Source: a virus. Taken from it: 54,667 nucleotides of DNA. The stretch covers positions 1-54,667 of IMG/VR virus record IMGVR_UViG_3300042484_001283, one strand, 5' to 3'. The notes under the pieces are model-generated. The model did no database searches. It saw only the letters and a list, made by a program, of their open reading frames with translations, and was not told where the DNA came from. Of this stretch, positions 3,237 to 27,660 are shown piece after piece (the stretch's first letter is position 1; every line of letters begins with the position of its first letter). The translations under genes and the position numbers were made by a program.

Positions 3237-3704
3237 ATGAAAATTGTGATCACGGGAATGGCGGGTAAGCGGAAGCAGATGGAGGAACTCGATCGAGCAG
3301 CACGGTTCTTCGCTCGTCAGTTGATGGATCCTCGTATGGTTCGCAATCTAGAAATCGACCTTGAAGTCTGGAAGGGTCTGGATGTCGAGGGTGAGTGCGT
3401 CGATGAAGATGGCACCAAGAATCCACGATATTTCACCATCGGTCTAAAACGTCAGAGCATGGAAGAGATGATCAAGACCCTTGGTCACGAGATGGTCCAC
3501 GTCAAGCAGCACGCGAAGAACGAGTTGCAGGGTGGTGTGATGATTGCCGCTCGTGGCAAGATGAAAATGACCAGTCGCTGGATGGGTAAGGTTTGGAAAC
3601 CCAATGGCAAGGAAGACCATTACTTCGATTCCCCTTGGGAAATTGAGGCATTCGGTCGTGAGGTAGGTCTCTATCAAAAGTGGTTGGCATCAGAGGCAGC
3701 ATAA
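3237..3704 (+). CDS. HExxH zinc metalloprotein (SprT/WLM-like)
   Basis: The start at 3237 is used because GAAGGAT (3223-3229) precedes it; 3219 overlaps the leader. The product of about 155 aa contains LGHEMVHVKQH (about residue 88-98), a zincin HExxH motif with a further His two residues on, and a downstream SPWEIEAFGRE segment whose Glu could be the third ligand, as in SprT-like and related families. Similar proteins are common in T4-like phages. Substrate unknown: a small protease or a DNA-protein crosslink factor are possibilities. It has its own promoter. Confidence 0.65.
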   Translation: MKIVITGMAGKRKQMEELDRAARFFARQLMDPRMVRNLEIDLEVWKGLDVEGECVDEDGTKNPRYFTIGLKRQSMEEMIKTLGHEMVHVKQHAKNELQGGVMIAARGKMKMTSRWMGKVWKPNGKEDHYFDSPWEIEAFGREVGLYQKWLASEAA

Positions 3705-3709
3705 TACCC

Positions 3710-5065
3710 GTGATTAATCGACATATAATTAATCCTGATATAAACTACGATGGAGCGAATAGAGATGATCTATTTCGTCTCATCAACCGTTGGAAACGGT
3801 TGCTTATAAGCAAGCAAATTAGTCGTGGTGATGTAATGGCTCTTGGTATTTTTGATGTATCACTGAACCATGTGGCATGTTTATTTGCAGCCGCCGAACT
3901 GAGTCTGAAAATTTTTATCATCACCAAACCCCTCGCAAAAGAAACAATACATGCAACAAAAATGGGAATCCATGGGCCAGTTGATATAACTATATCCCAG
4001 AGAATAGAGACGGATAATTTGCATATTGAAATGTTCGAGCGATATAGCAAGCAGATTTGTTATGAGGATGAGATTGACCAGATAACAGATGACACAGATG
4101 TAAGTATATCTGTGTCATCTAATGATCCACTTATATTTGCGTCGACTAGCGGTACCACAGGTACATCTAAACCCATCTTATTCACTCATGATGAAGTATA
4201 CAAGATTTCTCAGAGAAATATATCTGTCTTTGGTTATACGAAAGAAAGCGTGGTGCAACAAACAGTAAACATGCACCATGTCTCTGCTATGTTGACTTAT
4301 CTGTTTCCAACTCTAATGACATGCGATACACACTATGTTGGTGGTATTGCTTTTACACCACAGTATATTCAAAAGAAAATTTGGTATCCAATACAATTTG
4401 TCGAAACTTGCCTGACTGATAGAAAAGTAGATAATATAATATGTGCTAATAGTTTTATGTTATCCGCGATTCAATGGGGCATGACAGAAGCAAATAGATT
4501 GCCTGAGCATAGAATTACAATCAATATGTCTGGATTTCCAGCAGGTCCTGAAATATACAATATGGCTAAAGAATATCCAATAGATTTCATATCACATTAT
4601 GGTTCTATAGATACTGGTATTCCACTGCTGGTAAATAAGATTACACACGATTCAGTATACGAACCAGGATATATAGGTAAACTAGTAGACGATTTCTATA
4701 AAATAGTAGGTAATATGGTTTATTCTGATCTTTGGTCCGAACCAAGACCAGTACCAGATACTCTATTAGTTGAAGAAGATCGTTTTTATTATAGTGGTAG
4801 AAAAGAAGAACACCCATTATATACGGGTGAATTTAAACAGACGATGCTAGAACAACTCGGTGACCATGATTTCGTTGTTGCCAACACCGGAAAACAGTTT
4901 ATAGTTATATGGAACAAACAAGATCGATACGATATAGAAAATGGTAAAACCTCTATCGATAAAGTTATCACATTTGTATACCTGAATAAAGAAGACTTTA
5001 TGGTGGATACCAAAGTCAGCATGGAACAACTACGGGCGTATTTGGAGTATCACTATGCACCTTAG
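3710..5065 (+). CDS. ANL-superfamily adenylate-forming enzyme (AMP-binding ligase)
   Basis: The signature FASTSGTTGTSKPILFTH (about residue 142-160) is the A3 phosphate-binding loop of acyl-CoA synthetases and NRPS adenylation domains. SHYGSIDTG downstream resembles the A5 Y-G-x-(T/S)-E region, and YYSGRKEE resembles the A8 hinge (GRxD). At about 450 residues it is shorter than typical 500-600 aa relatives, and the C-terminal lid is reduced. Such enzymes activate a carboxylate as acyl-AMP and transfer it to a thiol, amine or hydroxyl. No carrier protein is visible nearby. The start is uncertain: GTG at 3710 lies just after the preceding gene, and GTG at 3680 would overlap it. Neither has a good ribosome binding site. 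Confidence 0.7.
   Translation: MINRHIINPDINYDGANRDDLFRLINRWKRLLISKQISRGDVMALGIFDVSLNHVACLFAAAELSLKIFIITKPLAKETIHATKMGIHGPVDITISQRIETDNLHIEMFERYSKQICYEDEIDQITDDTDVSISVSSNDPLIFASTSGTTGTSKPILFTHDEVYKISQRNISVFGYTKESVVQQTVNMHHVSAMLTYLFPTLMTCDTHYVGGIAFTPQYIQKKIWYPIQFVETCLTDRKVDNIICANSFMLSAIQWGMTEANRLPEHRITINMSGFPAGPEIYNMAKEYPIDFISHYGSIDTGIPLLVNKITHDSVYEPGYIGKLVDDFYKIVGNMVYSDLWSEPRPVPDTLLVEEDRFYYSGRKEEHPLYTGEFKQTMLEQLGDHDFVVANTGKQFIVIWNKQDRYDIENGKTSIDKVITFVYLNKEDFMVDTKVSMEQLRAYLEYHYAP
4088..4119. repeat. 12-bp perfect inverted repeat inside a CDS
   Basis: GATGACACAGAT at 4088-4099 is exactly complementary to ATCTGTGTCATC at 4108-4119, with an 8-nt loop. It lies in the adenylating-enzyme gene, just ahead of the A3 loop, in a segment coding for a D/S/V-rich linker. 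A stable intragenic RNA hairpin or a dyad binding site are both possible. Confidence 0.7.
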
Positions 5066-5073
5066 AATAGATA

Positions 5074-5091
5074 ATCATCACAAGTGATGAG
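5074..5091. promoter_or_regulatory. Palindrome upstream of the dioxygenase promoter
   Basis: TCATCAC AA GTGATGA (5075-5090) is a 7+7 palindrome ending 14 bases before the -35 box of the promoter at 5105. The 2-base spacer makes it a poor RNA hairpin and a better candidate protein-binding dyad. No T-tract follows. Confidence 0.35.
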
Positions 5092-5104
5092 CAGCAAAAA
5101 ACAC

Positions 5105-5133
5105 TTGACAAATCATTCATATTATAGTATAAT
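5105..5133 (+). promoter_or_regulatory. Sigma70-type promoter of the hypermodification operon
   Basis: TTGACA 5105-5110, 17-nt spacer, TATAAT 5128-5133: perfect consensus. It precedes four tightly packed genes (5186-9452). Confidence 0.9.
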
Positions 5134-5185
5134 GGTAGTATATAAAGTTGTTTAAATATAAGGTAAGAAAAACTTTGGAGATATT

Positions 5186-6526
5186 ATGGTAAAGATTATT
5201 GTCGCGGAGTCAAAACTAGATTGCGAGCATCTGCTCGGTCAGTATCTAGACGAGAGTCATTTCGACGTTGTGATCAATGAAGATACAGACTGCTATAAAG
5301 AGTCTGATTCTCTGTTAGACACAGAGTTAAATGAACGTAGGATTGCGTTTAAGTTTCGTAAGAACTTCTTCTCATTGGAAGAACAAGAGTCAGCATATGT
5401 GGGGTTGCGCGAAGCAGCAACAGAATCGCAGAATCGTGGACAGGCAGCAGGTCCTCGTGGCGAGATGCTTGGTGTAGAGGGTCGCGGTGGTCGTGACTGG
5501 GTAACTGACTACGAACTTGAAATTCTAGATTTCCTGATGACGGACAGGGGTAGACTGATTGACGAACTTAGCATTGAAGTAATTCGTGCTAAGCATGCAG
5601 GTGCACCACGATCAAGTGCCGAGGAAACACGAGGTGCTGTCTGGTTACGCAGTCAGGTCTGTAAGAAATATCCCGAATACTTCGGATGGTTCGACAAGTG
5701 GGTCGATAGTCTAGACGGTAAGTCAGAGGAAGAAATCGTAGATGCAGCAAGAACTATTGCAGAGAACTGGATCTCGACTACGAACTATGCGAAGTCGGTT
5801 TTCTCAGGTGTTGCTGGATGGTATGACCGTTATCCTAGGATTCCTTTTGGTCGTGCTACTACCTATACTCGCGATAACTTTGATAAGTTTAAGTTGTCCT
5901 TTCCTTTTCTACAGTCTCTGGACCGTGGTTTCAAAGAACTACTTCCCTCGCGTTGGAAGAACCAAAAGGAGGCAGCAGAAAAAATCGACTCTAAGTTCGT
6001 GGTTCCCGACACCGTATTCACCACCATCACTGTCAACAAATCTTTCCGAACAGCAGCGCATCGCGACGCTGGTGATTTTGCTGATGGTATCAGCAATCTT
6101 TTGGTCGTTGGTAGTGGTGACTATACTGGCGGTTATCTAATATTCCCTGAGTATCGTATCGCAGTGAATGTTCGTCCAGGTGATCTGTTGCTCGTAAGCA
6201 ATCACGAGATTATCCATGGTAACACTGAGATTAAACTGACTCGTCCAGATGCTGAACGTATTTCTTTGGTTTGTTATCTTCGTGAGAACATGCTAGATCT
6301 GGGTTCATATGAATATGAAACAACTCGTGAGAAATATGTTATTGACCGCAGAATGAACAAAGAACATCATTACTATCGTCCACTCTGGAATGGTGTATCT
6401 CCAGGAATGTGGGACGAGAAAGAATGGTATGACTATCTAGAAACTAAACTCGGTCGAGAAACAGTTTCTAAATATCATCCGAAAGCATGCACAGAAAGTT
6501 CATCGCTGGAAGAATTGTTCGGATGA
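5186..6526 (+). CDS. TET/JBP-family 2-oxoglutarate/Fe(II) DNA base dioxygenase
   Basis: The C-terminal half matches the TET_JBP oxygenase fold: an ITVNKSFRTAAHRDAGDF segment carrying the iron-binding HxD (His and Asp about residue 292-294), then YTGGYLIFPEY and VNVRPGDLLL, a distal HGNT whose His completes the iron triad (about residue 344), and an R-x-SLVCY-R segment fitting the 2-oxoglutarate-binding Arg. The family (trypanosome JBP, animal TET and phage homologues) oxidises the 5-methyl group of thymine or 5-methylcytosine in DNA to hydroxymethyl. The N-terminal 270 residues are helical and charged and may bind DNA. No cytosine-C5 methylase is in the window, so whether the substrate is T or 5mC is open. 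First gene of an operon with three sugar genes; its stop overlaps the next start (ATGA). Confidence 0.85.
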   Translation: MVKIIVAESKLDCEHLLGQYLDESHFDVVINEDTDCYKESDSLLDTELNERRIAFKFRKNFFSLEEQESAYVGLREAATESQNRGQAAGPRGEMLGVEGRGGRDWVTDYELEILDFLMTDRGRLIDELSIEVIRAKHAGAPRSSAEETRGAVWLRSQVCKKYPEYFGWFDKWVDSLDGKSEEEIVDAARTIAENWISTTNYAKSVFSGVAGWYDRYPRIPFGRATTYTRDNFDKFKLSFPFLQSLDRGFKELLPSRWKNQKEAAEKIDSKFVVPDTVFTTITVNKSFRTAAHRDAGDFADGISNLLVVGSGDYTGGYLIFPEYRIAVNVRPGDLLLVSNHEIIHGNTEIKLTRPDAERISLVCYLRENMLDLGSYEYETTREKYVIDRRMNKEHHYYRPLWNGVSPGMWDEKEWYDYLETKLGRETVSKYHPKACTESSSLEELFG

Positions 6527-7419
6527 AGGTTCTAGTTACTGGAGCAACAGGATATATTGGGTCGCACGTTGTTCGTATTTTGAAAGACCGTGGATATGTC
6601 GTTCACGGTCTAGATGCACATAATGTTCATGACGAACTTAATGCAGATATTATGGATGTGTGTGACAAGTTCTTTGAAATTGATGTTTTAGATACTACAT
6701 CGCTTACTGCCCAAGTTACCGACAAGTACGAGGCAGTAGTCCATCTCGCAGGTCTGTCTACTGTTGAAAGGTCTATGAAGATTCCATATGAGTATTTCAA
6801 TGTCAATGTCACTGGGACTAAAAACATTCTTGACTTTATTGACGCTAAACATATAATCTTTGCTGGATCTAGTTCTTCTTTTGAGAATGCTTCTCCGTAT
6901 GCAGTTTCCAAGACTGCTGCCGAACAAGTCATTCGTGCGCAGGAAAAGATGGGGTGGACAATCTTCCGTTTCTTTAATGTCTCAGGATCTGATGGTATTC
7001 ATCGACAACTTGGTTCTGCTACACATTTGATTCGAGTTATTGCCGAAGTGGCAACTGCGAAGCGTAAACAACTACAAGTGTACGGTAATGACTATGATAC
7101 GAGAGACGGGACGTGTATTCGTGATTACATTCACGTCGTTGATCTTGCCGAAGCAATTGTTACTGCTGCCGAGCAAGGTCCACTAAATACTGAATACGAA
7201 GAACTTGGTTCTTGCCAAGGTTGGACAGTCCTTGAAGTAATCAAATCTTTCGAGGAAGCAACATCAACCAAGATTGAATACGATATTGCCGATCGTCGTC
7301 CAGGAGATGCGGTCGCATGTAAGGTTCAGGTTCCTTCTGAACGTCTTACTCTCAAAAGAACAATTCACGATATGTGCTTAGATCAATATACACTGGAACG
7401 TGGTAAAAACAGGTGGTAA
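6523..7419 (+). CDS. galE: NAD-dependent sugar-nucleotide epimerase, GalE-like
   Basis: Translation starts at 6523, overlapping the dioxygenase stop. Features are an N-terminal Rossmann loop, VTGATGYIGSHV (GxxGxxG), a PYAVSKTAAE segment with catalytic Tyr and Lys (about residue 126-130), then RDYIHVVDLAEA and RRPGDAV, both typical of UDP-glucose 4-epimerase. At 298 aa it is slightly shorter than cellular GalE (about 338). The expected reaction is UDP-glucose to UDP-galactose, which would feed the UDP-galactopyranose mutase two genes downstream. Other short-chain epimerase specificities cannot be excluded. Confidence 0.85.
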   Translation: MKVLVTGATGYIGSHVVRILKDRGYVVHGLDAHNVHDELNADIMDVCDKFFEIDVLDTTSLTAQVTDKYEAVVHLAGLSTVERSMKIPYEYFNVNVTGTKNILDFIDAKHIIFAGSSSSFENASPYAVSKTAAEQVIRAQEKMGWTIFRFFNVSGSDGIHRQLGSATHLIRVIAEVATAKRKQLQVYGNDYDTRDGTCIRDYIHVVDLAEAIVTAAEQGPLNTEYEELGSCQGWTVLEVIKSFEEATSTKIEYDIADRRPGDAVACKVQVPSERLTLKRTIHDMCLDQYTLERGKNRW

Positions 7420-7425
7420 TATAAT

Positions 7426-8451
7426 ATGAAGAAAATACTAGTTACAGGATTCACGCGAGCAGCGTGTACGGAAAACTTTCATCAGAAATCTCAAATTAAT
7501 CTTTGCACTGCACACTACAGTTTCGTAGAATGTCTACGGGATATGGGGTGGCAGGTTGATCAGCGTCCTGTAACAGCAGGTGAAGATTTATCTGGGTATG
7601 ATAAAGTTGTTGTGTTTATTATGCATATCTCTCCATTCAATAGTTACATGTATGGTGCGCTATGGGCAATCAGTCAAAGACCTGATGCATATCTGGCGAT
7701 TGAAGATTGGCAGTCTCCCAAGAACATTAATACGTGGGGACGAGATATTGATAAGATTGTAGATTCAGTAACCAATGATTATTACATTAACAACGTGGTA
7801 GCAGAAAAAGAACTTCGTCCTGAATGGAAGTCTGCGTTTAAGGATGCCTTCTCTATCATTGCTGCTGGTGATAGACCAATTACGTTACCTGCGCATCTTG
7901 GTGGTGACTATAAGATGCTCTTTCCAAATTGGAAGGAAGATAAGGTGCATTCTTGGTTTGCTCCCGCATATACTCTTCATCGTCACCCAAATGTTTTGTT
8001 CCCCGAACCGAAGCAGCGCATTTTCAATTTTGCTGGTCTTATCCAAAGTGAAACTGAAAATTGGTTTAACAAGGTAACTAAGGATGCTACGTGGCAGATT
8101 ATGCAGTATGGTTCTAAGAGTAAGAAACAGACTCGTCTTACTGAAGAAGAAATGGTTACTGTATTCAACGTACAATGGGGCATTCTGATGGCGGGATACT
8201 GGCATGCTGGATCTGGTTGGTGGCGAGCACGACCGCAGCAGGTCGCTGATATTGGATCTATTCTTATCTGTGAAGATAAAGAGGGAGCAGTATTCGGCGA
8301 ACCTTATGTTGGTCTGACTTGTGCAAAACTTGAAGGTATGACTGAAGAGCATCTTGAACGTCTTGCTGCCGATCAGAAGGAAGCGTATTATACCTCGCAA
8401 CCAATGGACAAGAGTATAACACGTCGCCAAATTGAGGAATACTTGGCATGA
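7426..8451 (+). CDS. Candidate glycosyltransferase (GT-B-like), possible DNA galactofuranosyltransferase
   Basis: The 341-aa protein begins KKILVTGFTRAACTENFHQK and has a mixed alpha/beta N-terminal half. Its C-terminal region GWWRARPQQVADIGSILIC followed by VFGEPYVGL looks like the nucleotide-sugar binding part of GT-B enzymes, where an Arg and a Gly-rich turn followed by an acidic loop contact the donor. I do not recognise a named family. The call rests on this weak pattern and on its place between an epimerase and a UDP-Gal mutase and next to a TET/JBP dioxygenase. Its stop overlaps the next start (ATGA at 8448). Confidence 0.55.
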   Translation: MKKILVTGFTRAACTENFHQKSQINLCTAHYSFVECLRDMGWQVDQRPVTAGEDLSGYDKVVVFIMHISPFNSYMYGALWAISQRPDAYLAIEDWQSPKNINTWGRDIDKIVDSVTNDYYINNVVAEKELRPEWKSAFKDAFSIIAAGDRPITLPAHLGGDYKMLFPNWKEDKVHSWFAPAYTLHRHPNVLFPEPKQRIFNFAGLIQSETENWFNKVTKDATWQIMQYGSKSKKQTRLTEEEMVTVFNVQWGILMAGYWHAGSGWWRARPQQVADIGSILICEDKEGAVFGEPYVGLTCAKLEGMTEEHLERLAADQKEAYYTSQPMDKSITRRQIEEYLA

Positions 8452-9452
8452 AGTTTTTAGTAGTTGGCGCAGGGTTCGCGGGTGGAGTATACGCTCGCGA
8501 ACTTGCCGAGGCAGGCCATACAGTTGATGTCATTGACTCTCGCGATCACATAGCAGGTAATGCATACGATTATGTGAATGAATATGGCATCCGAGTCCAT
8601 GAGTATGGACCACATATTTTTCATACTTCGAACATGACAGTAGTTGATTGGTTAAGTAAATTTACCGATTGGGTAGAGCATCAGCATAAAGTTCTTGCTA
8701 AACACACTGATAGTAACTTCTATATTCTTCCTCCGAACCGAGATACAGTTGCGCGTATCGGCAAAGAAAATATTATTGACGTATTCTTTCGACCATACAC
8801 AAAGAAGATGTGGGAAAAGGAAATCGAAGAACTCAATCCCAAGATTCTCGAACGTGTTCCCATTCGCGACGACGATAATGAGTTGTATTTCCCAAATGAT
8901 GATTTTCAGAAAATGCCAGTAGATGGATATACTGCATTATTCGATCGTATTTTTGACCATGAAAACATTAATGTGAAACTTGTTTGCTTATTTGATAAGT
9001 CGATGGAGAATGAATATGATCATGTCTTCAATAGTATGCCTATCGATCAGTATTATGATTATGAATTTGGTGAATTACCGTATCGCAGTATCAAGTTTGA
9101 AACCATTACACTGCCAGAGCGACAGATGTATAAAGCAGCAACTACAAACTTTACGACATATGATGGACCGACGCGAGTAACTGAGTGGAAAAACTTTCCT
9201 AACCATGGTGACAATCATCTTGCAACAACCTTGACTTATGAGTATCCTTGTGATTATAAAGATAACAACATGGAACGTTATTATCCAGTCAAGGATATCG
9301 AGGGTATCAATGCGAGTATCTATGAGAAGTATTTAACAAAGGAAAATTCTAAAGTATCATTCATTGGGCGTTGTGGTACGTATCAATATCTAGACATGCA
9401 TCAGGTTATTAATCAATCTCTCATTTCAGTGAAAAAATTTCTAGATAATTAA
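8448..9452 (+). CDS. glf: UDP-galactopyranose mutase
   Basis: Clear Glf signatures are present: an N-terminal FAD-binding VVGAGFAGGVYARELAEAG, then DSRDHIAGNAYDY and HEYGPHIFHTSN, the conserved FAD/substrate segments. The C-terminus contains GRCGTYQYLDMHQVI, matching the conserved G-R-x-x-x-Y-x-Y-x-(N/D)-M element. It is 334 aa against about 370 for bacterial enzymes, with a compact middle. The reaction is UDP-Galp to UDP-Galf, which needs reduced flavin. UDP-Galf has no housekeeping use, so a Galf transferase is expected in the same pathway; the preceding gene is the obvious candidate. Confidence 0.92.
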   Translation: MKFLVVGAGFAGGVYARELAEAGHTVDVIDSRDHIAGNAYDYVNEYGIRVHEYGPHIFHTSNMTVVDWLSKFTDWVEHQHKVLAKHTDSNFYILPPNRDTVARIGKENIIDVFFRPYTKKMWEKEIEELNPKILERVPIRDDDNELYFPNDDFQKMPVDGYTALFDRIFDHENINVKLVCLFDKSMENEYDHVFNSMPIDQYYDYEFGELPYRSIKFETITLPERQMYKAATTNFTTYDGPTRVTEWKNFPNHGDNHLATTLTYEYPCDYKDNNMERYYPVKDIEGINASIYEKYLTKENSKVSFIGRCGTYQYLDMHQVINQSLISVKKFLDN

Positions 9453-9460
9453 AAAATCTA

Positions 9461-9489
9461 TTTACTTTTCCGTCAAATTATAGTATAAG
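9461..9489 (+). promoter_or_regulatory. Sigma70-type promoter
   Basis: TTTACT 9461-9466, 17-nt spacer and TATAAG 9484-9489, weaker than the other early promoters. A long leader leads to CGGAGAAATAAC and the ATG at 9547. Confidence 0.7.
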
Positions 9490-9546
9490 AGTAATTGTAG
9501 TTGAGAACTACGACACTCTTAAATTAATCCTGAACGGAGAAATAAC

Positions 9547-10830
9547 ATGAAGAATACACAAGTAAAGATGACCCGACGCGATATCATTCAAATGATGCGG
9601 CATGGAAAACTTAATCCTAATCCAATCGGTCAACGTCCCCCTATCCCCTCAAAGAAGAAACCAGTAGAAATAATCAATTCAATGCTTGATGGTTTCTTTA
9701 CAGGTTCAATTATTCTGCGCGATATCCGAAACGATCCCCACGCACAAGCGACATATCCTGGACAAGATTATCTTGTGATCGATGGCGGCAACCGAACACG
9801 TGCGATGCGTAGGTTCGAGGAAAATACTTTGGTTTCAAAGTATGGTACTATTGCTGAAATTAATTCAGATGAATTCCTGAATCATGAAGAACATGTTGTT
9901 CTTTATGAATGCACTGCTGCTGAAGCAACACAGATTTTTCGCACGGTAAATACCGTAACCGTAGTAAATGAAATCGAAATGATTATGGCAAATGAAGATT
10001 CTCAAGTTGCCAAGTTTATTCGGTCATTGACACAGATGTATCCAGAATATAAAAACGCTGTGCACGATTTGTTCCAGTGGAGAATCAAACAAGGCACTAC
10101 GGATGTGCGAGTTCCTGTAAATTTTTCTTCACAACATGTTAATGCTCGCCGTGAGTGGGACGAACTAGTTGGTGTTGTGTTGGTCAAGTGTCTTAATGGT
10201 ATGAACAACGTAGACGCAGGTTATCCTGTAATTGGTAAACTTGTTGATGACGATCAACCTTTGAGTGAAACTGTCAAGAGCAAGGTAAAGGCAACTCTTG
10301 ATGCAGCACTGAAGTCTTTGAAGTTCGCCAAGAGCAAGAAGTTTACTAAGGTCACGTTCGGTGTATTTCAATTAGTGTATTTCGAACTGATGAGTCAGGG
10401 TGCACGAATCATTGACTTTGATGAATTCTCTCGTCGTCTTTGGGCAGCGAATGCGAAACTGGATCAGAAGTATGCTAATCGCGATGATGGCATTATGTCT
10501 TCCAAAAAAGCATTTGGTCGCGGAGATATCCAGAAAGAACTCGCGCAAGAATACCTTAAAGAAATGGGAGACCTTGCAGGGATTGTCAATTTCTCAGCAC
10601 GTTCTGCTTCACTCAATGAAAAGTATAACGATTTAGCATTGAAGGGATTCCTCAGCGCTGATGGTGGTATCCTGGAATATGATGATGCTGAATGGTCGCA
10701 CATCACACCGCATGCGGATGGTGGAACCGAAGCAACGATGGAACGTAAAGAAATTAATCATTTGAATCTGACAATGGAAGAGCAAATGTTAATTCTTCAA
10801 ATGCGCAATAAGCAGACAGTCGTCGCATAA
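9547..10830 (+). CDS. DUF262 + HNH-type protein (GmrSD-like, single chain)
   Basis: The N-terminal part (about residues 30-100) holds LVIDGGNRTRAMRRFE, corresponding to the DGQQR-type ParB/DUF262 motif of GmrS. Near the C-terminus (about residue 380-410), WSHITPHADGGT followed by NHLNLT has the His/Asn arrangement of HNH (DUF1524-like) nucleases. At 427 aa it is a compact one-chain version. GmrSD enzymes are NTP-dependent type IV nucleases that cut glycosylated or hydroxymethylated DNA, so the position next to a predicted base-glycosylation operon is suggestive. It may attack rival modified phages or have been co-opted for another purpose. The phage's own DNA must be tolerated. Good GGAG site; next gene starts 1 base after the stop. 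Confidence 0.65.
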   Translation: MKNTQVKMTRRDIIQMMRHGKLNPNPIGQRPPIPSKKKPVEIINSMLDGFFTGSIILRDIRNDPHAQATYPGQDYLVIDGGNRTRAMRRFEENTLVSKYGTIAEINSDEFLNHEEHVVLYECTAAEATQIFRTVNTVTVVNEIEMIMANEDSQVAKFIRSLTQMYPEYKNAVHDLFQWRIKQGTTDVRVPVNFSSQHVNARREWDELVGVVLVKCLNGMNNVDAGYPVIGKLVDDDQPLSETVKSKVKATLDAALKSLKFAKSKKFTKVTFGVFQLVYFELMSQGARIIDFDEFSRRLWAANAKLDQKYANRDDGIMSSKKAFGRGDIQKELAQEYLKEMGDLAGIVNFSARSASLNEKYNDLALKGFLSADGGILEYDDAEWSHITPHADGGTEATMERKEINHLNLTMEEQMLILQMRNKQTVVA

Positions 10831-10831
10831 T

Positions 10832-11950
10832 ATGATACTAGAACAATCAGACGCAGAATACATCGCAACTCGATTTGTTGATTATATGTCAAACTATAAT
10901 CGTATCGATGATCACATGCGTATGAAAAAACTAGAAAGAATTAGATCTCTACCTCTTACTCTTCCAGGTTGTGAACCAGAGAACAATCTGTTCTCTGACT
11001 TTGATATGCACCCTGAAGACATGGATTTAGAGATCTATGAACCTTCTCCGAGCGAATTCACAACAATGGTGGAGATTACTTCTTCCTTTTGTAATGAGAA
11101 TTCGTTCGGGAAGGAAATAAAGTTTATCGTAAGGGAAAAGAATACTGGTAAGCACGTTGGTTATTGCCGAGTTGCTAGTCCACTTATCAATTCACGACCT
11201 CGTAATGAATGGTTCGGGCAGGTTCCCGACCTAAAGGCATTTAATAGACATGCGGTGATGGGTTTTATTATCGTTCCTGCTCAACCATTCGGTTTTAATT
11301 ATTTGGGTGGTAAACTGCTTGCACTTCTTTGCGCTTCTCACGAATTTCGGGAGATGTTCAATAAGAAATATGATATGGACACTTGTTTGTTCGAAACCAC
11401 CTCGTTGTATGGTAATATTAAGCAAGCATCGCAGTATGATGGTCTAAAACCCTTCATTCGCTATACTGGCGACACAGTTAGCAATTTTGTTCTCTCATTT
11501 TCCGATGAATTTTGGGGTGAGACAATGGAATGGTTTGCAAGTAAAAATAATGGACAACCACTCTTCTCACGAGAAGGAATTGCGTCTTATAAATTGAAAA
11601 TGCAGAACAAAATGATGTCTGTAATCAAAAATTCGCTTAAATATCACAATTCTTCGGTCCTTGACCGCTTTTCAAGCGCAATTCAGGCGAACAAAGACGT
11701 CACAACCCAAAAACGGTTCTATATTTCGACTTACGGATACGAAAATTCGCGAGATTACATCCTCGGAAAGGATAAAACACTCGTAAAAAACGTTGAAAAT
11801 TTTGATAAACACTATTTGGATAATATTATTCGCTGGTGGAAGAAGAAAGCGACTTCTCGTTACGAAAATTTGCGGTCAGAAGGTCGTTTGCGTCGCGAAT
11901 TAGAGGTTTGGAACGAAGAATCAATCGGAAAGATTGATATAATTCGTTGA
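10832..11950 (+). CDS. DUF4338 / DruA-like protein
   Basis: The 372-aa product contains VGYCRVASPLINSRPRNEWF (near residue 105-125), then a hydrophobic strand GFIIVPAQPFGFNYLGGK and LLALLCASHEFREMF, followed by FETTSLYG and SQYDGLKPFIRYTG. This order matches a protein common in T4-like marine phages that is often assigned to DUF4338, the family of DruA in the Druantia defence system. The biochemical role is unknown. It is cotranscribed with the DUF262/HNH gene, which strengthens the idea of a two-gene anti-competitor or takeover unit. Confidence 0.55.
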   Translation: MILEQSDAEYIATRFVDYMSNYNRIDDHMRMKKLERIRSLPLTLPGCEPENNLFSDFDMHPEDMDLEIYEPSPSEFTTMVEITSSFCNENSFGKEIKFIVREKNTGKHVGYCRVASPLINSRPRNEWFGQVPDLKAFNRHAVMGFIIVPAQPFGFNYLGGKLLALLCASHEFREMFNKKYDMDTCLFETTSLYGNIKQASQYDGLKPFIRYTGDTVSNFVLSFSDEFWGETMEWFASKNNGQPLFSREGIASYKLKMQNKMMSVIKNSLKYHNSSVLDRFSSAIQANKDVTTQKRFYISTYGYENSRDYILGKDKTLVKNVENFDKHYLDNIIRWWKKKATSRYENLRSEGRLRRELEVWNEESIGKIDIIR

Positions 11951-12589: not shown

Positions 12590-13039
12590 ATGCTAAAACG
12601 AGCGATGGTGCTCCTGACGCTATTAAGTCTAAGTAGTCCAGCATACGCCGATCCAATTGTTCAACAGTTTAAATCACCTTCCTTTACTGGTTATGGGTGG
12701 TCTTCGCATGTGCAGTCAATCGACGCACAAGAACGTTCGCGTGAACAGGCAATCAAAGATGCAGAGGCAGCGAAGGCAGCATTGATAAGAGCAGAGGCAG
12801 CAAATACTCCTCTTGCTAAATTCATGGCGTTGTTTACCTCTCAGGTTTATGCCCAACTTGCTACACAACTTTCAAACAATCTGTTCGCAGAAGGCGGAAC
12901 AGCAACCACGGGAACATTTAATCTCGATGGTAATTCTGTGAGTTATGTTAAGACTGGAACTGAAGTTACTCTAACAGTAGTCGATAAGAATGGCAATACT
13001 ACGGTTGTTGTCGTTCCTATTGCTACATTCGCATTCTAA
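12590..13039 (+). CDS. csgF: Curli accessory protein CsgF-like
   Basis: A Sec signal peptide, MLKRAMVLLTLLSLSSPAYA, precedes the mature start DPIVQQFKSPSFTG. CsgF has a comparable F-x-NP-x-F-GG mature N-terminus that inserts in the CsgG channel. The C-terminal YVKTGTEVTLTVVDKNG then VVVVPI parallels the CsgF beta domain. The middle is Ala/Glu rich and longer than in E. coli CsgF (149 versus 138 aa in total). In curli, CsgF couples subunit secretion through CsgG to nucleation at the surface. It lies directly upstream of csgG. Ribosome binding site AAAGGAAGAG. Confidence 0.75.
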   Translation: MLKRAMVLLTLLSLSSPAYADPIVQQFKSPSFTGYGWSSHVQSIDAQERSREQAIKDAEAAKAALIRAEAANTPLAKFMALFTSQVYAQLATQLSNNLFAEGGTATTGTFNLDGNSVSYVKTGTEVTLTVVDKNGNTTVVVVPIATFAF

Positions 13040-13048
13040 GGAGACGTT

Positions 13049-13873
13049 ATGAAAAAAATAGTTCTCCTTCCACTTTTACTCGTTCTTTCTGGTTGTGTTG
13101 GCGCACTTCATCCTACTGCCAACCAATCATATCTGTTTAGAGATGATGCAGAAGTCAAAAGGTTTGCCAACCCGAAACTGTTTAAGAATCTTCCTGAGTT
13201 AGATGGTCAACCGATTCCTATCGCACTGTATTCATTTACCGATAGAACTGGCCAACGTAAACCATCTTCGACTCTCGCAAGTTTCTCAACTGCGGTAACT
13301 CAAGGTGCAGATGCATACTTGATTAAGACTTTACAAGATACAGGAGGTGGCAAGTGGTTCATTCCTGTGGAGCGTGTCGGTATTGACTCGCTGATCAAAG
13401 AACGTCAACTTGTTCGTCAGATGCGCGAACAGATTTCAGGAGAAGCGGCTGAACCTCTTCCTCCATTGAAAGTTGCGGGTATCATTATAGAAGGTGGTAT
13501 CATTGATTATAATTCGAATATCAAAACGGGTGGTACTGGCGCTCGTTTTCTTGGAGTTGGTCCGTACCAACAATATACACAAGACCAAGTTACAGTTAGT
13601 CTTCGCCTCGTTTCTGTCCAAACTGGCGAAGTTCTTAATTCGGTTACTGTAGAGAAAACGGTTCTTTCTACTTCTGAGGGGATAACTGCTTTTACATTCT
13701 TCGACATGGCGACTAAAGCGTTTGAATTTGATGGACAACAAACAAGTAATGAAGCAGGTAGTTATGCGATCCGTTCTGCCATAGAAACGGCTGTTGTTGA
13801 GTTAATCAAGGATGGTGAAACAAAGAATCTATGGAGATTTAAACAAAAGGAAACGACAAATGAAACTAAGTAA
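13049..13873 (+). CDS. csgG: Curli secretion channel lipoprotein CsgG
   Basis: The signal peptide ends in a lipobox (LLLVLSGC, Cys about residue 16). YSFTDRTGQRKPS, then FSTAVTQGA, then WFIPVERVGIDSLIKERQLVRQ matches the CsgG signature. The constriction-loop region (F before STAV) keeps the aromatic residue, while the neighbouring Asn of E. coli is Ser. 274 aa agrees with the family (about 277). CsgG forms a nonameric outer-membrane pore for secreting amyloid subunits. The gene has a strong AAGGAGACG site and overlaps the following curlin-like gene by 14 bases. Confidence 0.92.
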   Translation: MKKIVLLPLLLVLSGCVGALHPTANQSYLFRDDAEVKRFANPKLFKNLPELDGQPIPIALYSFTDRTGQRKPSSTLASFSTAVTQGADAYLIKTLQDTGGGKWFIPVERVGIDSLIKERQLVRQMREQISGEAAEPLPPLKVAGIIIEGGIIDYNSNIKTGGTGARFLGVGPYQQYTQDQVTVSLRLVSVQTGEVLNSVTVEKTVLSTSEGITAFTFFDMATKAFEFDGQQTSNEAGSYAIRSAIETAVVELIKDGETKNLWRFKQKETTNETK

Positions 13874-14633
13874 GTTTTTATTAGTTGGCGCTGCTCTTTG
13901 TTATGGAACATCTGCGATTGCACAAACTGTGCTACCAACAGCACCAACTCCTCCAGCAATTGTAACAACTTCGCCGAATGAAACAGAAGCGAATACTGTT
14001 GCAACAACAAACAAGGTATATATCGATCAAGAAGGAGGTAACGTAGATGTTAACATCGTTCAAACTGGTACTGCTAACGTTATCGGTTCTACTCTTGATC
14101 CTATTTACCTACGTGGTGATAACCAGAGCGTTATCGCAATACAGACAGGCAATGGAAACCAACTTTATATGGGTGTCGTATCCGATACAGGTGCCCAAGG
14201 AATCGCCGATGTAACAATCCGTCAAATCGGCAATCTGAATACCGCAGACATTCGTTGCGGAACAGAACTTAATGACTCCTCATGTAATCAACTTGACATG
14301 AATGCCAAGTTTACTGGTAACAGCAACTCGTTTGTTTTCCGTGGGTCGGGTGCTAATATCCGTAACTCGATGGATTTCAACGGTAACAATAACACAGTAA
14401 ACATGGATGCACTATCACCAAATGCGACACAAACAATTCTGGTGACGGGCAACTACAATGACTTTGATGTTACACAAACCGATCTCGGTGGAACATTCGG
14501 TCACTCACTATATGTAAACCTGACAGGTTCGCTAAACACTGTAACAACACAACAGTATGGCGCATCTGAAACTGTGATCAATATTAATAGTGTGGGATCA
14601 AATGGCACGTTTAATATCAAAACTGGCCACTAA
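13860..14633 (+). CDS. Curlin-repeat secreted protein (CsgA/CsgB-like)
   Basis: Starts at ATG 13860 with a signal peptide, MKLSKFLLVGAALCYGTSAIAQ (start further upstream would lose it). The mature protein carries imperfect curlin-type repeats with spaced Gln, Gly and Asn: VNIVQTGTANVIG, VIAIQTGNGNQLY, VTIRQIGNLNTAD, and more divergent FTGNSNSF and MDFNGNNNTVN units. Such beta-strand-turn repeats make amyloid curli fibres. There is one Cys pair (about RCG and SCN) unlike E. coli CsgA. It is the predicted substrate of the adjacent CsgG/CsgF. About 257 aa. Confidence 0.8.
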   Translation: MKLSKFLLVGAALCYGTSAIAQTVLPTAPTPPAIVTTSPNETEANTVATTNKVYIDQEGGNVDVNIVQTGTANVIGSTLDPIYLRGDNQSVIAIQTGNGNQLYMGVVSDTGAQGIADVTIRQIGNLNTADIRCGTELNDSSCNQLDMNAKFTGNSNSFVFRGSGANIRNSMDFNGNNNTVNMDALSPNATQTILVTGNYNDFDVTQTDLGGTFGHSLYVNLTGSLNTVTTQQYGASETVININSVGSNGTFNIKTGH

Positions 14634-15747
14634 TCTTCTACTGATTTTTCTGTTATCGACTCCTGCCTTTGCTGGTATTGGGTCGATAACAGATTTCAGA
14701 GGAGGTGGTGCTATTAAGCGTGGCGCCAAGACTACAGTAGCATCTAAAGGTGCTGGCGTAGAAAAGATGGACACAATTTCCACCAACTCCCAAGGCAGAT
14801 TTAGGATTACATTCAATGACTCGACTACAGTTAATATCACAGAAAACTCGCGACTTCTTGTGGATGACTTTGTGTATGATGGTGGAGGGTCATCAAAAGG
14901 CAAACTCGGGTTACGAGTTGCTCTTGGAACAGTTAGATATGCGTCAGGCAAAGTCGCGAAAACAAACCCACGAGGCGTAAACATTCGCACACCAACTGCT
15001 ACTATCGCAGTTCGTGGCACAGACTTCGTTATGTCGGTTGATGAAGCAGGTCGTTCTACGGTCGTGCTGGTTCCCGAATGCTATAACGAATTAGACATCA
15101 CAAAACAAACTGCTGAATGTCCAACAGGCATGATTGAAGTTATCACCGCATCTGGTGTAGTTACGTTAAACCAACCATTCCAAGCAACAGTTGTAGAAAA
15201 CAACTTTGCTCCTCCTGCTCCACCAGTAGTCGTTAATCCTTTGATGAAGGCGCTGGATAATAACGTTCAACTTGTTTCGCTGGAAACAGATGATGGACAA
15301 AGTTTACTTCAACTTGCTAGAGATAGTTTAAAGAAGTTTACCAATCCTTCTAGGGCGGCATCGGACGACAACAAAGATCCAGATGGGGGCACAAATGATA
15401 ACGTTGAACAAGTCGCTGCGGTAATGCGTCGACCAGCAACACCACAAGAACTACTAGACGTTTTTGCTGAGTTCAACGAAGGTAACATTCCAGCAGAAAC
15501 TTTCTATACTAATGTTTCCCCGATATTCAAAAAGAATGTTCAGGTCGGATGGGTGTATACCAGACTTTCTGAAGATAGGCAACAAGCAGTTACTATCTGG
15601 TTAGAGAAGGGCAACGAAGCACAAGTTGTATCTGTTCAAAATGGTTTGATAGATGTTTACAACTTTGTGGACGATAAGTGGACAACATCGGGGACTGGTA
15701 GACCACAGGGTAACATCACTGTGATGCAAGAATCAGGTGCGAGATGA
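14602..15747 (+). CDS. FecR-domain periplasmic/secreted protein
   Basis: ATG 14602 gives a clean signal peptide MARLISKLATNLLLIFLLSTPAFA. Then a FecR domain follows: GRFRITFNDSTTVNITENS, then GTVRYASGK and NIRTPTATIAVRGTDFVMSV (about residue 120-145), the classic T-P-x-A-x-x-x-V-R-G-T-(D/E)-F core. The C-terminal 200 residues are not recognised and include an acidic linker and KNVQVGWVYTRLSE. No sigma factor or anti-sigma N-terminus is present, so it is not a FecR-type regulator of FecI. FecR-domain and CHASE2-cyclase proteins occur together in bacteria, as they do here. ATGA overlap with the next gene. Confidence 0.8.
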   Translation: MARLISKLATNLLLIFLLSTPAFAGIGSITDFRGGGAIKRGAKTTVASKGAGVEKMDTISTNSQGRFRITFNDSTTVNITENSRLLVDDFVYDGGGSSKGKLGLRVALGTVRYASGKVAKTNPRGVNIRTPTATIAVRGTDFVMSVDEAGRSTVVLVPECYNELDITKQTAECPTGMIEVITASGVVTLNQPFQATVVENNFAPPAPPVVVNPLMKALDNNVQLVSLETDDGQSLLQLARDSLKKFTNPSRAASDDNKDPDGGTNDNVEQVAAVMRRPATPQELLDVFAEFNEGNIPAETFYTNVSPIFKKNVQVGWVYTRLSEDRQQAVTIWLEKGNEAQVVSVQNGLIDVYNFVDDKWTTSGTGRPQGNITVMQESGAR

Positions 15748-17198
15748 AAAAACTAATCGCTCTGTTCCTACTATTCTTTGCGATGCCAGCATTCGCACAA
15801 GTTACGAACTACGGTTTTGAGAGTGGTAACTACACAGGTTGGACAGTGAGTAACGGTTCAACTGCCGCAAGAACTTCGTGGAGTGATAGTGGTTCTGGTG
15901 CACAAGTTACAACTGGTATGACTAACTACTGTCCAGGTAACGGTAAGTGCTGGACTGTTACTCCATATGGTTCATATATGATTTCACTTCAAGCAGGTGG
16001 TGGTTCTCCTGGATTTGACGGTGCTATGACTACTTTGGGATTGACAGGTTCAACAATTACTTCGATTAGAAATACCATCTATGCAAATGGTAATATGAAT
16101 CCTACGAATGCCACATCTATTAGTAGAACAATATTTCTACAAGCAGGTACAACATATAGTTATGCTTGGCAGTATGTTTCGACTGATTATGTTCCATACA
16201 ATGATGGATCGATGATCACATTAACTGGTGGTCCAGGAACCCCAACGATTAATGGGCAAACTCAAAACTTTGCGCTGCTTGGATTTACAAATGAGGGCAC
16301 GGGTAACTATTCGGTTGGATCTTATGGTGCTACTGGTTGGCAAGTCGCAGTATTCACAGTTCCTACTGACGGAAACTATCTGCTAGGTTTTGCCTCGTTC
16401 AACCTCGGTGATACTGCATTGTCACCAATTCTGTTTATCGATCAGATGCAAGGAACAACCTCGCTGAATGGAGCAACGTTTACTCCCGTCGAACCAAACG
16501 CTGGTTCTTCTGCTCCTCCGCCTCCCCCTCCTGCGCCACCAGAACCAACATTTCCTCTTGCATCTATCAGTGCTAATCAATCATTGAAGATCAATCAAAC
16601 AAATGCGATTACGCAAAACTCTATCTACATCAATGCATCTGGATCTAACAACTCAGTTTATATTGAACAGTTTTCTAAGCAGAACCAAATCCGTGGTGTT
16701 AACGGCGCACAGGCAATGACCATCAATGGTAGCGGCAACAGCATTACTATCAATCAGGGCACGGCAGCGACACCAATCGGTAAAAACTTGGCAGAAGTTT
16801 CTGTTACTGGTAACAACAACCTTGTATCATTGACACAACAATATGCAGGCAAATACGCTGAGATTGTCACCAACGGTCTTGGCAATCAAATCTCAGCACA
16901 ACAAAAAGATGCTGGAGGAAAATCGTTGTTTATCAATGCTTTAGGAAACTCTAATAATATCAGCACCTTACAACAGGGAACAGGTAATCACTTTTTAGAT
17001 ATTAGCGCACCATTTGGTGGAGTCACTGCATCGGTTACTCAATTGGGTTCTTCTATAAAGCAATTTCAACTTTTACTAAATAGTCCTGGAATTGGTGTAA
17101 CTGTCACACAAAATAATTTGGCTGCCACTGACTCTGCGAAAATGGAAATAACATGCACGACTGGACCATGTAATGGATACTCTTATACAAAAAACTAA
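15744..17198 (+). CDS. Secreted lectin-like/curlin-repeat fusion protein
   Basis: Signal peptide MKKLIALFLLFFAMPAFAQ. Residues about 20-245 form a beta-rich jelly-roll-like domain (NYGFESGNYTGWTVSNG at the start, as in PEP-CTERM or CBM-like carbohydrate/adhesion domains). A poly-proline hinge APPPPPPAPPEP (about residue 253-265) follows. The C-terminal 220 residues have curlin-type repeats (INQTNAITQNSIYI, VYIEQFSKQNQIRG, ITINQGTAATP, VSLTQQYAGKYAE, ISTLQQGTGNHF). It is a plausible surface-displayed adhesin that co-assembles with the smaller curlin. 484 aa. It overlaps the cyclase start by 26 bases. Confidence 0.75.
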   Translation: MKKLIALFLLFFAMPAFAQVTNYGFESGNYTGWTVSNGSTAARTSWSDSGSGAQVTTGMTNYCPGNGKCWTVTPYGSYMISLQAGGGSPGFDGAMTTLGLTGSTITSIRNTIYANGNMNPTNATSISRTIFLQAGTTYSYAWQYVSTDYVPYNDGSMITLTGGPGTPTINGQTQNFALLGFTNEGTGNYSVGSYGATGWQVAVFTVPTDGNYLLGFASFNLGDTALSPILFIDQMQGTTSLNGATFTPVEPNAGSSAPPPPPPAPPEPTFPLASISANQSLKINQTNAITQNSIYINASGSNNSVYIEQFSKQNQIRGVNGAQAMTINGSGNSITINQGTAATPIGKNLAEVSVTGNNNLVSLTQQYAGKYAEIVTNGLGNQISAQQKDAGGKSLFINALGNSNNISTLQQGTGNHFLDISAPFGGVTASVTQLGSSIKQFQLLLNSPGIGVTVTQNNLAATDSAKMEITCTTGPCNGYSYTKN

Positions 17199-20742: not shown

Positions 20743-21328
20743 ATTTGATATTGTAATGAAGTGGATGGAATACATCCGCAACAATCCAGATAATGCGCAT
20801 AGATTCTCAGAGAACTTCTGGTCCAGTCAGATCGAGAGTAAGAAGTGGTTGCTCGAATGTATTCCCGAGAATACAAAATCTATCGTTATATTCGGCGGTT
20901 GGTATGGTATTCTGGCACAGTTTATTGCTGAGCGGTATCCTGATACTCTTATCTTAACAACAGATCTCGATTCTAATTGTGAACCTGTATTTGACCAAAT
21001 CAATCTCAGTAGAAATATTAAATACCAACAACATGATATGAGAAATGGTATGCCTCGTCTGCCCCTGAGCATGTCATCAATAGTGGACCTTGTGATTAAC
21101 ACCAGTAGTGAACATGTAACACAAGATGTTTATGATGCATGGTGGGACTCTCTTATTCCTGGGACTAAATACATAGTCCAAGGAAATAATCTAGTTAATC
21201 CTGAGCATGTTCGTCTTGCCGATAATCTAGAAGAATTCCTAACGATCAACAGAATCAAAGATCCAGAATACGCTGGTATGTTGAAGTGTGGGCATTTTTA
21301 TAGGTTCATGGCGACAGGTATCAAATAA
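20735..21328 (+). CDS. SAM-dependent methyltransferase-like protein
   Basis: GTG at 20735 is chosen because GAGGA lies 6 bases upstream. About 198 aa. VIFGGWYGILAQFIAERYP is the motif-I-like SAM loop (about residue 48-60), TTDLDSN holds the acidic residue at the end of strand 2, and VDLVINTSSEHV is the motif IV region. The rest fits a short class I Rossmann methyltransferase. Related genes accompany twitch-type radical SAM genes in marine phages as far as I recall. The substrate is unknown. Stop and next start overlap (TAATG). Confidence 0.6.
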   Translation: MVEFDIVMKWMEYIRNNPDNAHRFSENFWSSQIESKKWLLECIPENTKSIVIFGGWYGILAQFIAERYPDTLILTTDLDSNCEPVFDQINLSRNIKYQQHDMRNGMPRLPLSMSSIVDLVINTSSEHVTQDVYDAWWDSLIPGTKYIVQGNNLVNPEHVRLADNLEEFLTINRIKDPEYAGMLKCGHFYRFMATGIK

Positions 21329-26518: not shown

Positions 26519-27660
26519 GCGAACCTAAAATTTATTGTCCGTCCATGTGGAAATCCGTGCACGTTGACACTGATGGTTACTTAACTCCATGCTGTCTTTT
26601 TATTCACAAAAAAGACAAAAAAAGCAAACTTGTGGATATAGAAAATGCAGAGACTATTCTGCAAGAAGAATTCCAGGAATATCGTGACCAACTATCACAA
26701 GGTATTTGGCCGAGCGGTTGTAACCAATGCAAATTCGCAGAGGAAGAAGGACGAGACAGTAAACGAACACAAGATATGTGGATGTTACATAATGGAACAA
26801 TGCTAACACCACCTGAAGAAGTTTCTCTTGAATATTTACAGTTAAAAACTGGAAGATTATGTAATCTCCGTTGCACAATATGCACTCCTGCATGTTCAAC
26901 TGCAATTGCAACCGAACTCTTGCGCGAAGGAAAATTGGACAGGTATACATACGATCGTTTAAACGAAGAGATTGCTTGGTCTTATGATGTAGAACAGTAT
27001 AAAAAATTGAATCCTGGTGAAACTGGATATTTCAGAATTGATATTGCAGGTGGCGAACCACTAATGAACAAGACACACTTTGAGTGGTTGGATCAATTAC
27101 CGAATCCAGAAAAAACAATATTGCTATACAATACGAATGGAACACAAAGACCCAGTAGAAAAGAAATTGATATTTGGAAAAAATTCAGGGGAATTATTCT
27201 ATCCTTCAGTATAGATTCTTATGGTGATAAGTTCGAGAAACTAAGAGTAGGTGCTAAGTGGGATCAAGTTTTAGATAATTTAAAATATTGTCAAGAAGAA
27301 ATTATATCAAAAGAATTTGATTTACACACATCAAACGTTTCTATCGTTATGACAGTAAGTAAGATGAACGTTAGAGACACAATTACTCTTTACAAGATAT
27401 TGAATCAATATGTGCGGTTTACTAATTCAAATCCGTTAAATTTCAACTACTTGTATTATCCTGATCATATGGCATGCCACAACATGTCACGAGAGGAACT
27501 GCAGGATGTAATTGCATTGTATGATGCTGAGATACCTTCTTTACCCGAAGAGGGTAAAATGCGAAAGCAGTGCGTGGATTTACGAAACAGTCTATTTTCA
27601 TTTTTGGATGGAAAAGAAGTGGACAATCCAAGACCAATGACAAGAGATCATAGAAAATGA
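26515..27660 (+). CDS. Radical SAM enzyme 5 (twitch/SPASM-like)
   Basis: CNLRCTIC (about residue 116-123) and IAGGEPLM (about residue 178-185). N-terminal IYCPSMWKSVHVDTDGYLTPCC and GCNQCKFAEEEG repeat the auxiliary-cluster layout of enzymes 3 and 4. 381 aa. The start uses the ATGA overlap. All five enzymes keep the SAM cluster cysteines and GGEP, so none looks inactivated. Confidence 0.87.
   Translation: MSEPKIYCPSMWKSVHVDTDGYLTPCCLFIHKKDKKSKLVDIENAETILQEEFQEYRDQLSQGIWPSGCNQCKFAEEEGRDSKRTQDMWMLHNGTMLTPPEEVSLEYLQLKTGRLCNLRCTICTPACSTAIATELLREGKLDRYTYDRLNEEIAWSYDVEQYKKLNPGETGYFRIDIAGGEPLMNKTHFEWLDQLPNPEKTILLYNTNGTQRPSRKEIDIWKKFRGIILSFSIDSYGDKFEKLRVGAKWDQVLDNLKYCQEEIISKEFDLHTSNVSIVMTVSKMNVRDTITLYKILNQYVRFTNSNPLNFNYLYYPDHMACHNMSREELQDVIALYDAEIPSLPEEGKMRKQCVDLRNSLFSFLDGKEVDNPRPMTRDHRK

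Follow-up and report, generated by a model that had tools for sequence, protein, structure and literature searches.

Sugar-decorated hydroxymethyl pyrimidines are already known in phage DNA, and phage dioxygenases of the TET family and the TET-associated glycosyltransferases (TAGTs) are known as well. The sugars known on phage DNA are few: glucose, gentiobiose, arabinose and a pentose. The TAGT enzyme is GT-A like (PMC13216743), and phages with 5-hydroxymethyluracil (hmU), such as PhiW-14, phosphorylate hmU in the DNA and then attach an amine (PMC6449724). According to Petrov et al. (PMC2993671), the Aeromonas phages 44RR, 31 and 25 have gp42 and lack glucosyltransferase homologues, and Morganellaceae phages have arabinose genes with no known transferase (PMC8056088). 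Two papers, concerning Atu_ph04 and DSL-LC01, assigned the UDP-galactopyranose mutase (UGM) of phages to the bacterial cell wall (PMC6630229, PMC10611076). In the open-access literature, no paper joining galactofuranose or UGM to DNA modification was found. Here we analysed a 54,667-base IMG/VR virus record (IMGVR_UViG_3300042484_001283, hereafter the window), which is a fragment of a T4-like phage and contains a TET gene followed by genes for a GalE-type epimerase, a glycosyltransferase (GT) and UGM. It is likely that these genes form a cassette in which TET hydroxylates the methyl group of a pyrimidine (probably thymine), GalE and UGM make UDP-galactofuranose (UDP-Galf), and GT attaches galactofuranose to DNA.

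The four co-directional genes are located at 5186-9452 on the + strand. They encode a TET/JBP 2-oxoglutarate/Fe dioxygenase (5186..6526; 446 amino acids, aa), a GalE-type NAD-dependent UDP-glucose/UDP-galactose 4-epimerase (6523..7419; 298 aa), a GT of phrog_14998 that is a candidate DNA galactofuranosyltransferase (7426..8451; 341 aa), and UGM (Glf; 8448..9452; 334 aa). The TET/GalE and GT/UGM junctions are 4-nucleotide (nt) ATGA overlaps, and GalE and GT are separated by 6 nt. The longest open reading frame (ORF) of the epimerase begins at 6487, and 6523, where ATGA overlaps the TET stop, is the likely start. A sigma-70-type consensus promoter is located upstream at 5105..5133 on the + strand (TTGACA at 5105-5110, TATAAT at 5128-5133, spacer of 17 nt; 12/12 matches). 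It is the best among 16 promoter-like sites in 4900-10000. As 14.2 sites are expected in shuffles, such sites are not enriched as a class, and only the perfect site is meaningful.

The TET protein matches PF12851 with an E value of 8.2e-24 (84.1 bits against the cut-off of 34.9), and its profile detects human TET2 at E 6e-5. A conserved N-terminal region of about 200 residues precedes the C-terminal oxygenase domain. The residues H292-R-D294, H344 and R358, the last as the 2-oxoglutarate-binding Arg, are invariant across 14 aligned sequences. In the AlphaFold2 (AF2) model (pLDDT 76, pTM 0.67), the 26 best PDB matches are all TET-family DNA-base dioxygenases (CcTet, NgTET1, TET2 and CMD1). From these features, TET looks active. 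GalE and UGM also look active, judging from their motifs. The epimerase matches PF01370 (E 2.5e-41), and in the PDB it is matched best by GalE enzymes (E 3e-40, against 3e-15 for a dehydratase). It has the Rossmann GxxGxxG motif, S116-119 and Y126xxxK130, and is closest to GalE among the extended short-chain dehydrogenases/reductases. The UGM matches PF03275 (E 2.5e-52, 178 bits) and 13 solved UGM sequences from the PDB (best E 1.2e-65). The motifs GAGFAG, GPHIFHT, PIR (R140), TRVTE (R243), YYP and GTYQYLDM are present, and we take them to hold the catalytic arginines and tyrosines.

The GT matches phrog_14998 (E 2.8e-43), a PHROG family with no assigned function. No Pfam match was found at E<=0.1, and the families of T4 alpha-glucosyltransferase (PF11440), T4 beta-glucosyltransferase (PF09198) and TAGT (PF20691) do not include it. 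The alignment profile gave only a chance match against the PDB sequences; thus a structural route was taken. The AF2 model from a nine-sequence alignment (pLDDT 79.3, pTM 0.80) has two Rossmann-like halves. Foldseek gave six PDB matches at E<=1e-3, among them SpnP, SenB, elaiophylin GT, tll1591 and SnogD, which are all GT-B enzymes as far as can be told. T4 DNA alpha-glucosyltransferase bound to DNA ranks eighth (E 1.2e-3, probability 0.99). The TM-scores against the top PDB matches are just 0.3-0.5, as would be expected for a distant GT-B enzyme with variable domain closure. According to the model, GT is a GT-B glycosyltransferase. In an alignment of 19 diverse relatives, D59, D94, G229, W266, R267, R269 and E286 are invariant, and the C-terminal ones near E286 may, by analogy, lie in the region of the GT-B nucleotide-binding glutamate. 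A pattern search of 84,980 bacterial and archaeal genomes found no relative of GT; thus neither a cellular source nor a prophage was found in them. The arabinosyltransferase ORF003c of RB69 was considered as a relative and rejected, as the similarity is not significant.

A sequence-only reading of this DNA had proposed a consensus promoter driving four overlapping or abutting genes, with the HxD motif and distal His of TET/JBP in place. The promoter match, the two overlaps with the single short gap, and the intact catalytic residues agree with that proposal. Its four gene identities are borne out by Pfam, PHROG, motifs and the structure model. This includes the doubtful 7426 protein, which had been called a candidate glycosyltransferase and for which structure prediction recovered the GT-B fold.

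The same gene order recurs outside the window. Other viral contigs, belonging to several separate lineages, have TET-(GalE)-GT-UGM, and in the 156-kb phage C48C1 TET-GT-UGM occurs with no GalE. The GT relatives in viral contigs (64-82% identity) have TET on the 5' side and UGM on the 3' side wherever the contig is long enough, and an epimerase-like gene usually lies between TET and GT. The ordered recurrence across lineages indicates a cassette rather than a chance assembly. At L015-L018 (L numbers denote loci), a cytidylyltransferase-like gene and a second GT-B gene (PF00534) are added between TET and UGM, and these sister cassettes possibly make a different or longer sugar.

The closest TET relatives of the window (L033-L112, 59-90% identity) have neither this GT nor UGM. 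The genes on the 3' side of their TET are instead TAGT (PF20691), ADDT (amino-acid:DNA transferase, PF18724), GATase_6, Amidoligase_2, GT-B and P-loop kinase (PF18751) genes. The flanks of the locus are orthologous in the nearest relatives: TET is 74-90% identical, the curli genes are 85-97% identical, and the DruA-like gene that is the right-hand anchor of the swap (10832..11950, + strand; PF14236, DruA of Druantia defence, 1.1e-11) is 81-84% identical. Between these flanks, the window has GalE, GT, UGM and the gene for a 427-aa protein, and L034, L098 and L035 have TAGT (PF20691, 1.2e-12), with one more gene in L035. In L041, genes of the GATase_6-like, amidoligase-like and other kinds precede ADDT (PF18724, 1.3e-19) and P-loop kinase (PF18751, 7.5e-15). 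As the flanks are orthologous and the contents differ, GalE-GT-UGM replaces, at one address, families named for acting on DNA bases.

The hydroxymethyl source is also exchanged. At seven loci (L190-L193 and L197-L199), GalE-GT-UGM is found in the order of the window, and a dCMP-hydroxymethylase-like gene replaces TET. Among 30 loci with both GT and UGM (including near-duplicates, about 14 distinct lineages), 17 have TET, eight have the hydroxymethylase and five have neither; these five start at GT or with under 1.7 kb of sequence before it. TET or a hydroxymethylase-like gene is therefore present at each UGM-linked GT locus whose upstream sequence is long enough. A linked and conserved pair of hydroxymethyl-base source and transferase, as in operons for phage DNA hypermodification, was found. 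The seven loci belong to a second GT clade (the L029 type, 41 loci), which adjoins a gene of the thymidylate synthase (TS) superfamily. This gene shares 57% identity with the gp42-like gene of Aeromonas phage Aes012 and Erwinia phage FBB1, and it has Asp at the position of the Asn of thymidylate synthase. The L029-type loci and most of the TET loci lie among replication genes, between gp46/gp47 and gp45/gp44; in the nearest relatives of the window, the locus adjoins curli genes instead. In the GT tree, the TET-linked clade (14 rows, 100/99) is separate from the hydroxymethylase-linked clade (17 rows, 100/98), which includes the solitary L031. Separate clades are as expected if GT is tuned to the acceptor base, and simple vertical descent gives the same picture.

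Two further observations were made at these loci. In the hydroxymethylase-type cassettes (L029 11088-12302 and 39 similar loci), GT or UGM is almost always followed by a C5-cytosine methyltransferase gene, whose product often has a clamp-like tail. GT homologues with no UGM were seen at L008, L009, L012 and L031, which represent Gordonia phages, a Manatee Spring siphophage and a T7-like contig.

The C-terminus of TET suggests how the enzyme might reach the DNA. In T4, the gp43 peptide SLDFLF holds the clamp (PMC12746103), the tails of gp43, gp55 and gp33 are interchangeable (PMC2988020), and alpha-glucosyltransferase binds gp45 (PMC13216743). The window TET ends in CTESSSLEELFG, with SLEELFG as the final residues, and the gp43 DNA polymerases of G001 and C48C1 end in SLEDLFT and TLEDFFG, respectively. 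From this likeness, the tail ACTESSSLEELFG (6485..6523, + strand) is a candidate sliding-clamp-interacting peptide, and TET is a candidate clamp ligand of the T4 type, with a C-terminal SL(D/E)xLF-like peptide as in gp43. Four ORFs of C48C1 have a clamp-like tail (0.15 expected from shuffling) and three of G001 (0.24 expected), and both sets include gp43 DNA polymerase and TET. The strict tail pattern is present in 74 of 99 complete TETs, although the loci behind these counts are not independent, and most of the remaining ones have LxxFF-like tails. The pattern is also present in 14 of 16 TAGTs and in all three members of one GT-B cluster. The strict search of Cr30 and DLP6 gave one weak candidate each, and TET is not among them. 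In the AF2 model, residues 441-445 of TET form a short helix with low confidence. This tail probably tethers TET to replicating DNA.

The substrate of TET enzymes is a 5-methyl pyrimidine. In the proposed mechanism, TET/JBP, probably held at the replication fork by the clamp-binding tail, would hydroxylate a pyrimidine of newly made phage DNA at its 5-methyl group, and the likely reaction is from thymine to hmU. GalE would convert the UDP-glucose of the host to UDP-galactopyranose, and UGM would contract the ring to give UDP-galactofuranose. The GT-B enzyme would then move galactofuranose onto the hydroxymethyl group. By analogy, the bulky sugar may shield the phage DNA from host nucleases and so have a role in defence. 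Our confidence is strong for DNA as the acceptor, good for galactofuranose as the sugar, and moderate for uracil rather than cytosine as the base. The best reading of the predicted product is 5-(galactofuranosyloxymethyl)uracil, a base-J-like mark, and the version on 5-hydroxymethylcytosine (hmC) is the main alternative.

The gene contents bear on the base. A search for C5-methyltransferase (PF00145) gave nothing in C48C1, DLP6, Cr30 or those TET-bearing contigs that were covered, many of which are fragments, whereas all four hydroxymethylase-type contigs tested have one. A phage C5-methyltransferase as the source of 5-methylcytosine (5mC) was thus not found in the TET phages searched. TS-family genes were likewise not found in C48C1, DLP6 and the TET contigs (again many fragments), and Cr30 has one TS. 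ThyX is present in 5/5 TET contigs tested, with a weak match in DLP6. These results, together with ADDT and P-loop kinase in the sister modules, favour the conversion of thymine to hmU, and on these gene contents it appears about twice as likely as a product based on hmC. If the base is cytosine, TET would oxidise 5mC made by a methyltransferase of the host or an unseen one of the phage, giving galactofuranosyl-5-hydroxymethylcytosine. We regard this as possible but doubtful. Cultured-phage homologues of GT do occur in genomes with gp42-type hydroxymethylases, and Burke and co-workers are said to have reported in 2021 that other phage TETs act on 5mC. However, the distribution of C5-methyltransferase and ThyX just described argues against it, as do the ADDT and P-loop kinase genes, which are kinds known from hmU phages, and the distinctness of the window GT clade from the hydroxymethylase-linked clade.

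The sugar may differ from galactofuranose. Relatives of UGM can use UDP-arabinopyranose, Providencia and Morganella phages have distant GT homologues in their arabinose locus beside arabinose-5-phosphate isomerase, and some sister cassettes have the additional cytidylyltransferase and second GT-B. Another furanose (e.g. arabinofuranose or a deoxy-hexofuranose), or the addition of a sugar onto another sugar, nevertheless seems unlikely, as the only sugar genes of the window cassette are the GalE-type epimerase (GalE E ~1e-40) and UGM with its motifs, and no dehydratase, decarboxylase or isomerase is beside them. The sequence-only reading allowed that galactofuranose could go on virion proteins or host surface glycans, with TET as a mere neighbour. 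UGM normally serves cell-surface glycans, and the Atu_ph04 and DSL-LC01 papers placed the phage UGM at the cell wall. This route is now very unlikely for the window, because the UGM-linked GT stands beside TET or the hydroxymethylase wherever the upstream sequence suffices, GalE-GT-UGM takes the place of TAGT and ADDT at the TET locus, the locus of relatives lies among replication genes, and the cellular genomes searched gave no GT relative. Cell-wall galactofuranose, the published guess for the UGM of other phages, was rejected for this cassette by its locus and partners. The step from gene content to DNA, which the sequence-only reading had left as inference, is supported by the exchange with TAGT and ADDT at the orthologous locus, the replacement of TET by the hydroxymethylase, the clamp-like tail, and the presence of T4 DNA alpha-glucosyltransferase in the first ten matches of the GT model. 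Some 2-oxoglutarate oxygenases act on RNA, and TET might in principle modify tRNA or mRNA. We consider this the least probable explanation, since the TET tail is common to DNA polymerase, the TET model matches DNA-base TETs first, and the module is exchanged with TAGT and ADDT.

Several points weigh against galactofuranosylation of hmU in the DNA. The sugar, the base and the linkage have all been inferred from sequence. Most other TET cassettes have an epimerase-like gene with no more than 31-35% identity to the window GalE (59% in L022), so the exact sugar may differ between cassettes. Known ADDT-type phages such as PhiW-14 make hmU at the nucleotide level and not via TET, and thus the deduction of hmU for the window is indirect by one step. 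This GT family also serves hmC-type phages, which keeps hmC possible, and a C5-methyltransferase elsewhere in the genome is possible, as the window is a 54.7-kb fragment. The GT and UGM of the window have no clamp tail, and the TET of Cr30 has no clear one. The GT homologue of the T7-like contig (L031) stands alone, and the Gordonia GT homologues have no UGM nearby.

In cultured phages, adjacent UGM and GT genes are found in Aeromonas phages (25, Aes012, phiAS4 and others), Stenotrophomonas phage IME13, Erwinia phage FBB1 and actinophage DSL-LC01. Aes012 has two TS-family genes, as does FBB1, and the GT and UGM of DSL-LC01 are near one TS-family gene. The GT of phrog_14998 is a good candidate for the DNA glycosyltransferase of phage 25. 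A distant GT homologue of Providencia and Morganella phages (23% identity; L010 6372-8068 and L011 6315-8011) is flanked by arabinose-5-phosphate isomerase and a nucleotide-sugar gene, with a gp42-like gene close by, and is a candidate for the missing arabinosyltransferase of the Morganellaceae T4-like phages. The Providencia GT as a query found no relatives among viral contigs.

Other genes surround the cassette. The 427-aa protein (9547..10830, + strand) has no reliable Pfam match, and its membership of the cassette is uncertain. Its homologues come after the cassette in several other TET-GT-UGM loci (in cluster C19, 7/8 members are four genes past TET), and a second, weaker promoter-like stretch, read by eye, precedes the gene at 9547. 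Immediately 5' of the cassette promoter is an AMP-binding, acyl-CoA-ligase-like gene (3680-5065; PF00501, 2.6e-8) with no PHROG match. The curli-type genes at 12590-17198 encode CsgF (PF10614, 4e-17), CsgG (PF03783, 5e-52), a weak curlin-repeat match and a FecR-domain protein. They are 85-97% identical in sister phages and form an unusual viral set for functional-amyloid secretion. A sensor cyclase with CHASE2 and class III adenylate/guanylate cyclase domains follows directly (17173-19224; PF05226 3e-36, PF00211 3e-17). At 21328-27660, five radical-SAM genes in a row, two of them with a SPASM match, precede an SGNH-like ORF. A NodU/TobZ-type carbamoyltransferase is encoded at 28562-29986 (PF16861, PF02543), and it is 77% identical in G001 and 38% in C48C1. 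As a phage-associated relative of this enzyme adds a carbamoyl group to hmC in DNA (PMC8670742), a second base decoration in the window phage is possible by analogy.

If galactofuranose is attached to the phage DNA as proposed, phrog_14998 would gain a function as a family of DNA glycosyltransferases. The Aeromonas gap (PMC2993671) then has a candidate answer, as phage 25, named there, has the GT and UGM pair, and a candidate transferase is offered for the Morganellaceae T4-like phages (PMC8056088). The clamp-like tail of TET would explain how a post-replicative oxidase modifies the whole genome. As the content of the slot can be exchanged, natural modules can be compared to test the choice of decoration. 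The enzymes that place or recognise galactofuranose on DNA might serve to label DNA, and one can search for host defences that read these marks. A broader proposal, for which we see even chances, is that TET at the fork and a new DNA galactofuranosyltransferase family would make a viral analogue of base J, that GalE-GT-UGM would be a portable module acting on hmU in phages with TET and on hmC in those with the hydroxymethylase, and that one slot would be a socket for interchangeable decorations of the glucose type, the amino-acid type and galactofuranose.

The cassette resembles several known systems. Like the phage TET and TAGT systems, it would have TET make a hydroxymethyl base in the DNA and a neighbouring GT decorate it, and in the closest relatives TAGT occupies the same slot after TET. 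Unlike TAGT (PF20691), the window GT has no Pfam match, is modelled as GT-B, and comes with its own GalE and UGM. In T4, gp42 and the alpha- and beta-glucosyltransferases likewise place a sugar on a 5-hydroxymethyl pyrimidine, the fold is also GT-B, and the alpha enzyme is among the best structural matches. The window differs from T4 in having TET in place of gp42, a GT of another family (neither PF11440 nor PF09198), and galactofuranose where T4 uses the UDP-glucose of the host. The arabinosylation of 5-hydroxycytosine in RB69 and Mosigvirus is similar in that a phage-made unusual sugar is placed on a pyrimidine, and in that distant GT homologues are found in the arabinose cluster of Providencia and Morganella. 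Unlike RB69, the window cassette has neither arabinose-5-phosphate isomerase nor an NTP-transferase, and its GT is not detectably similar to ORF003c. A tblastn search found no arabinose-5-phosphate isomerase at the TET-linked GT loci, and the GT neighbours in the window are TET, GalE and UGM, unlike an RB69-type locus with its isomerase and ORF53_52c-like enzyme. The ADDT/amidoligase hypermodification of thymine in PhiW-14-type hmU phages is an alternative module at the same TET locus in relatives, but it attaches amino compounds and not a sugar. If TET acts on thymine, the cassette resembles base J of kinetoplastids (glucosyl-hydroxymethyluracil, made by JBP and a glucosyltransferase), where thymine is oxidised and then glycosylated. 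The differences from base J are the furanose form of galactose, the phage-encoded supply of UDP-Galf, the different GT, and a viral instead of a nuclear genome. We know of no earlier case of a hexofuranose on DNA, and galactofuranose would be the first. The novelty would lie in a module of GalE, GT and UGM that puts a hexofuranose on DNA, and in the exchange of this module between systems based on TET and systems based on a hydroxymethylase.

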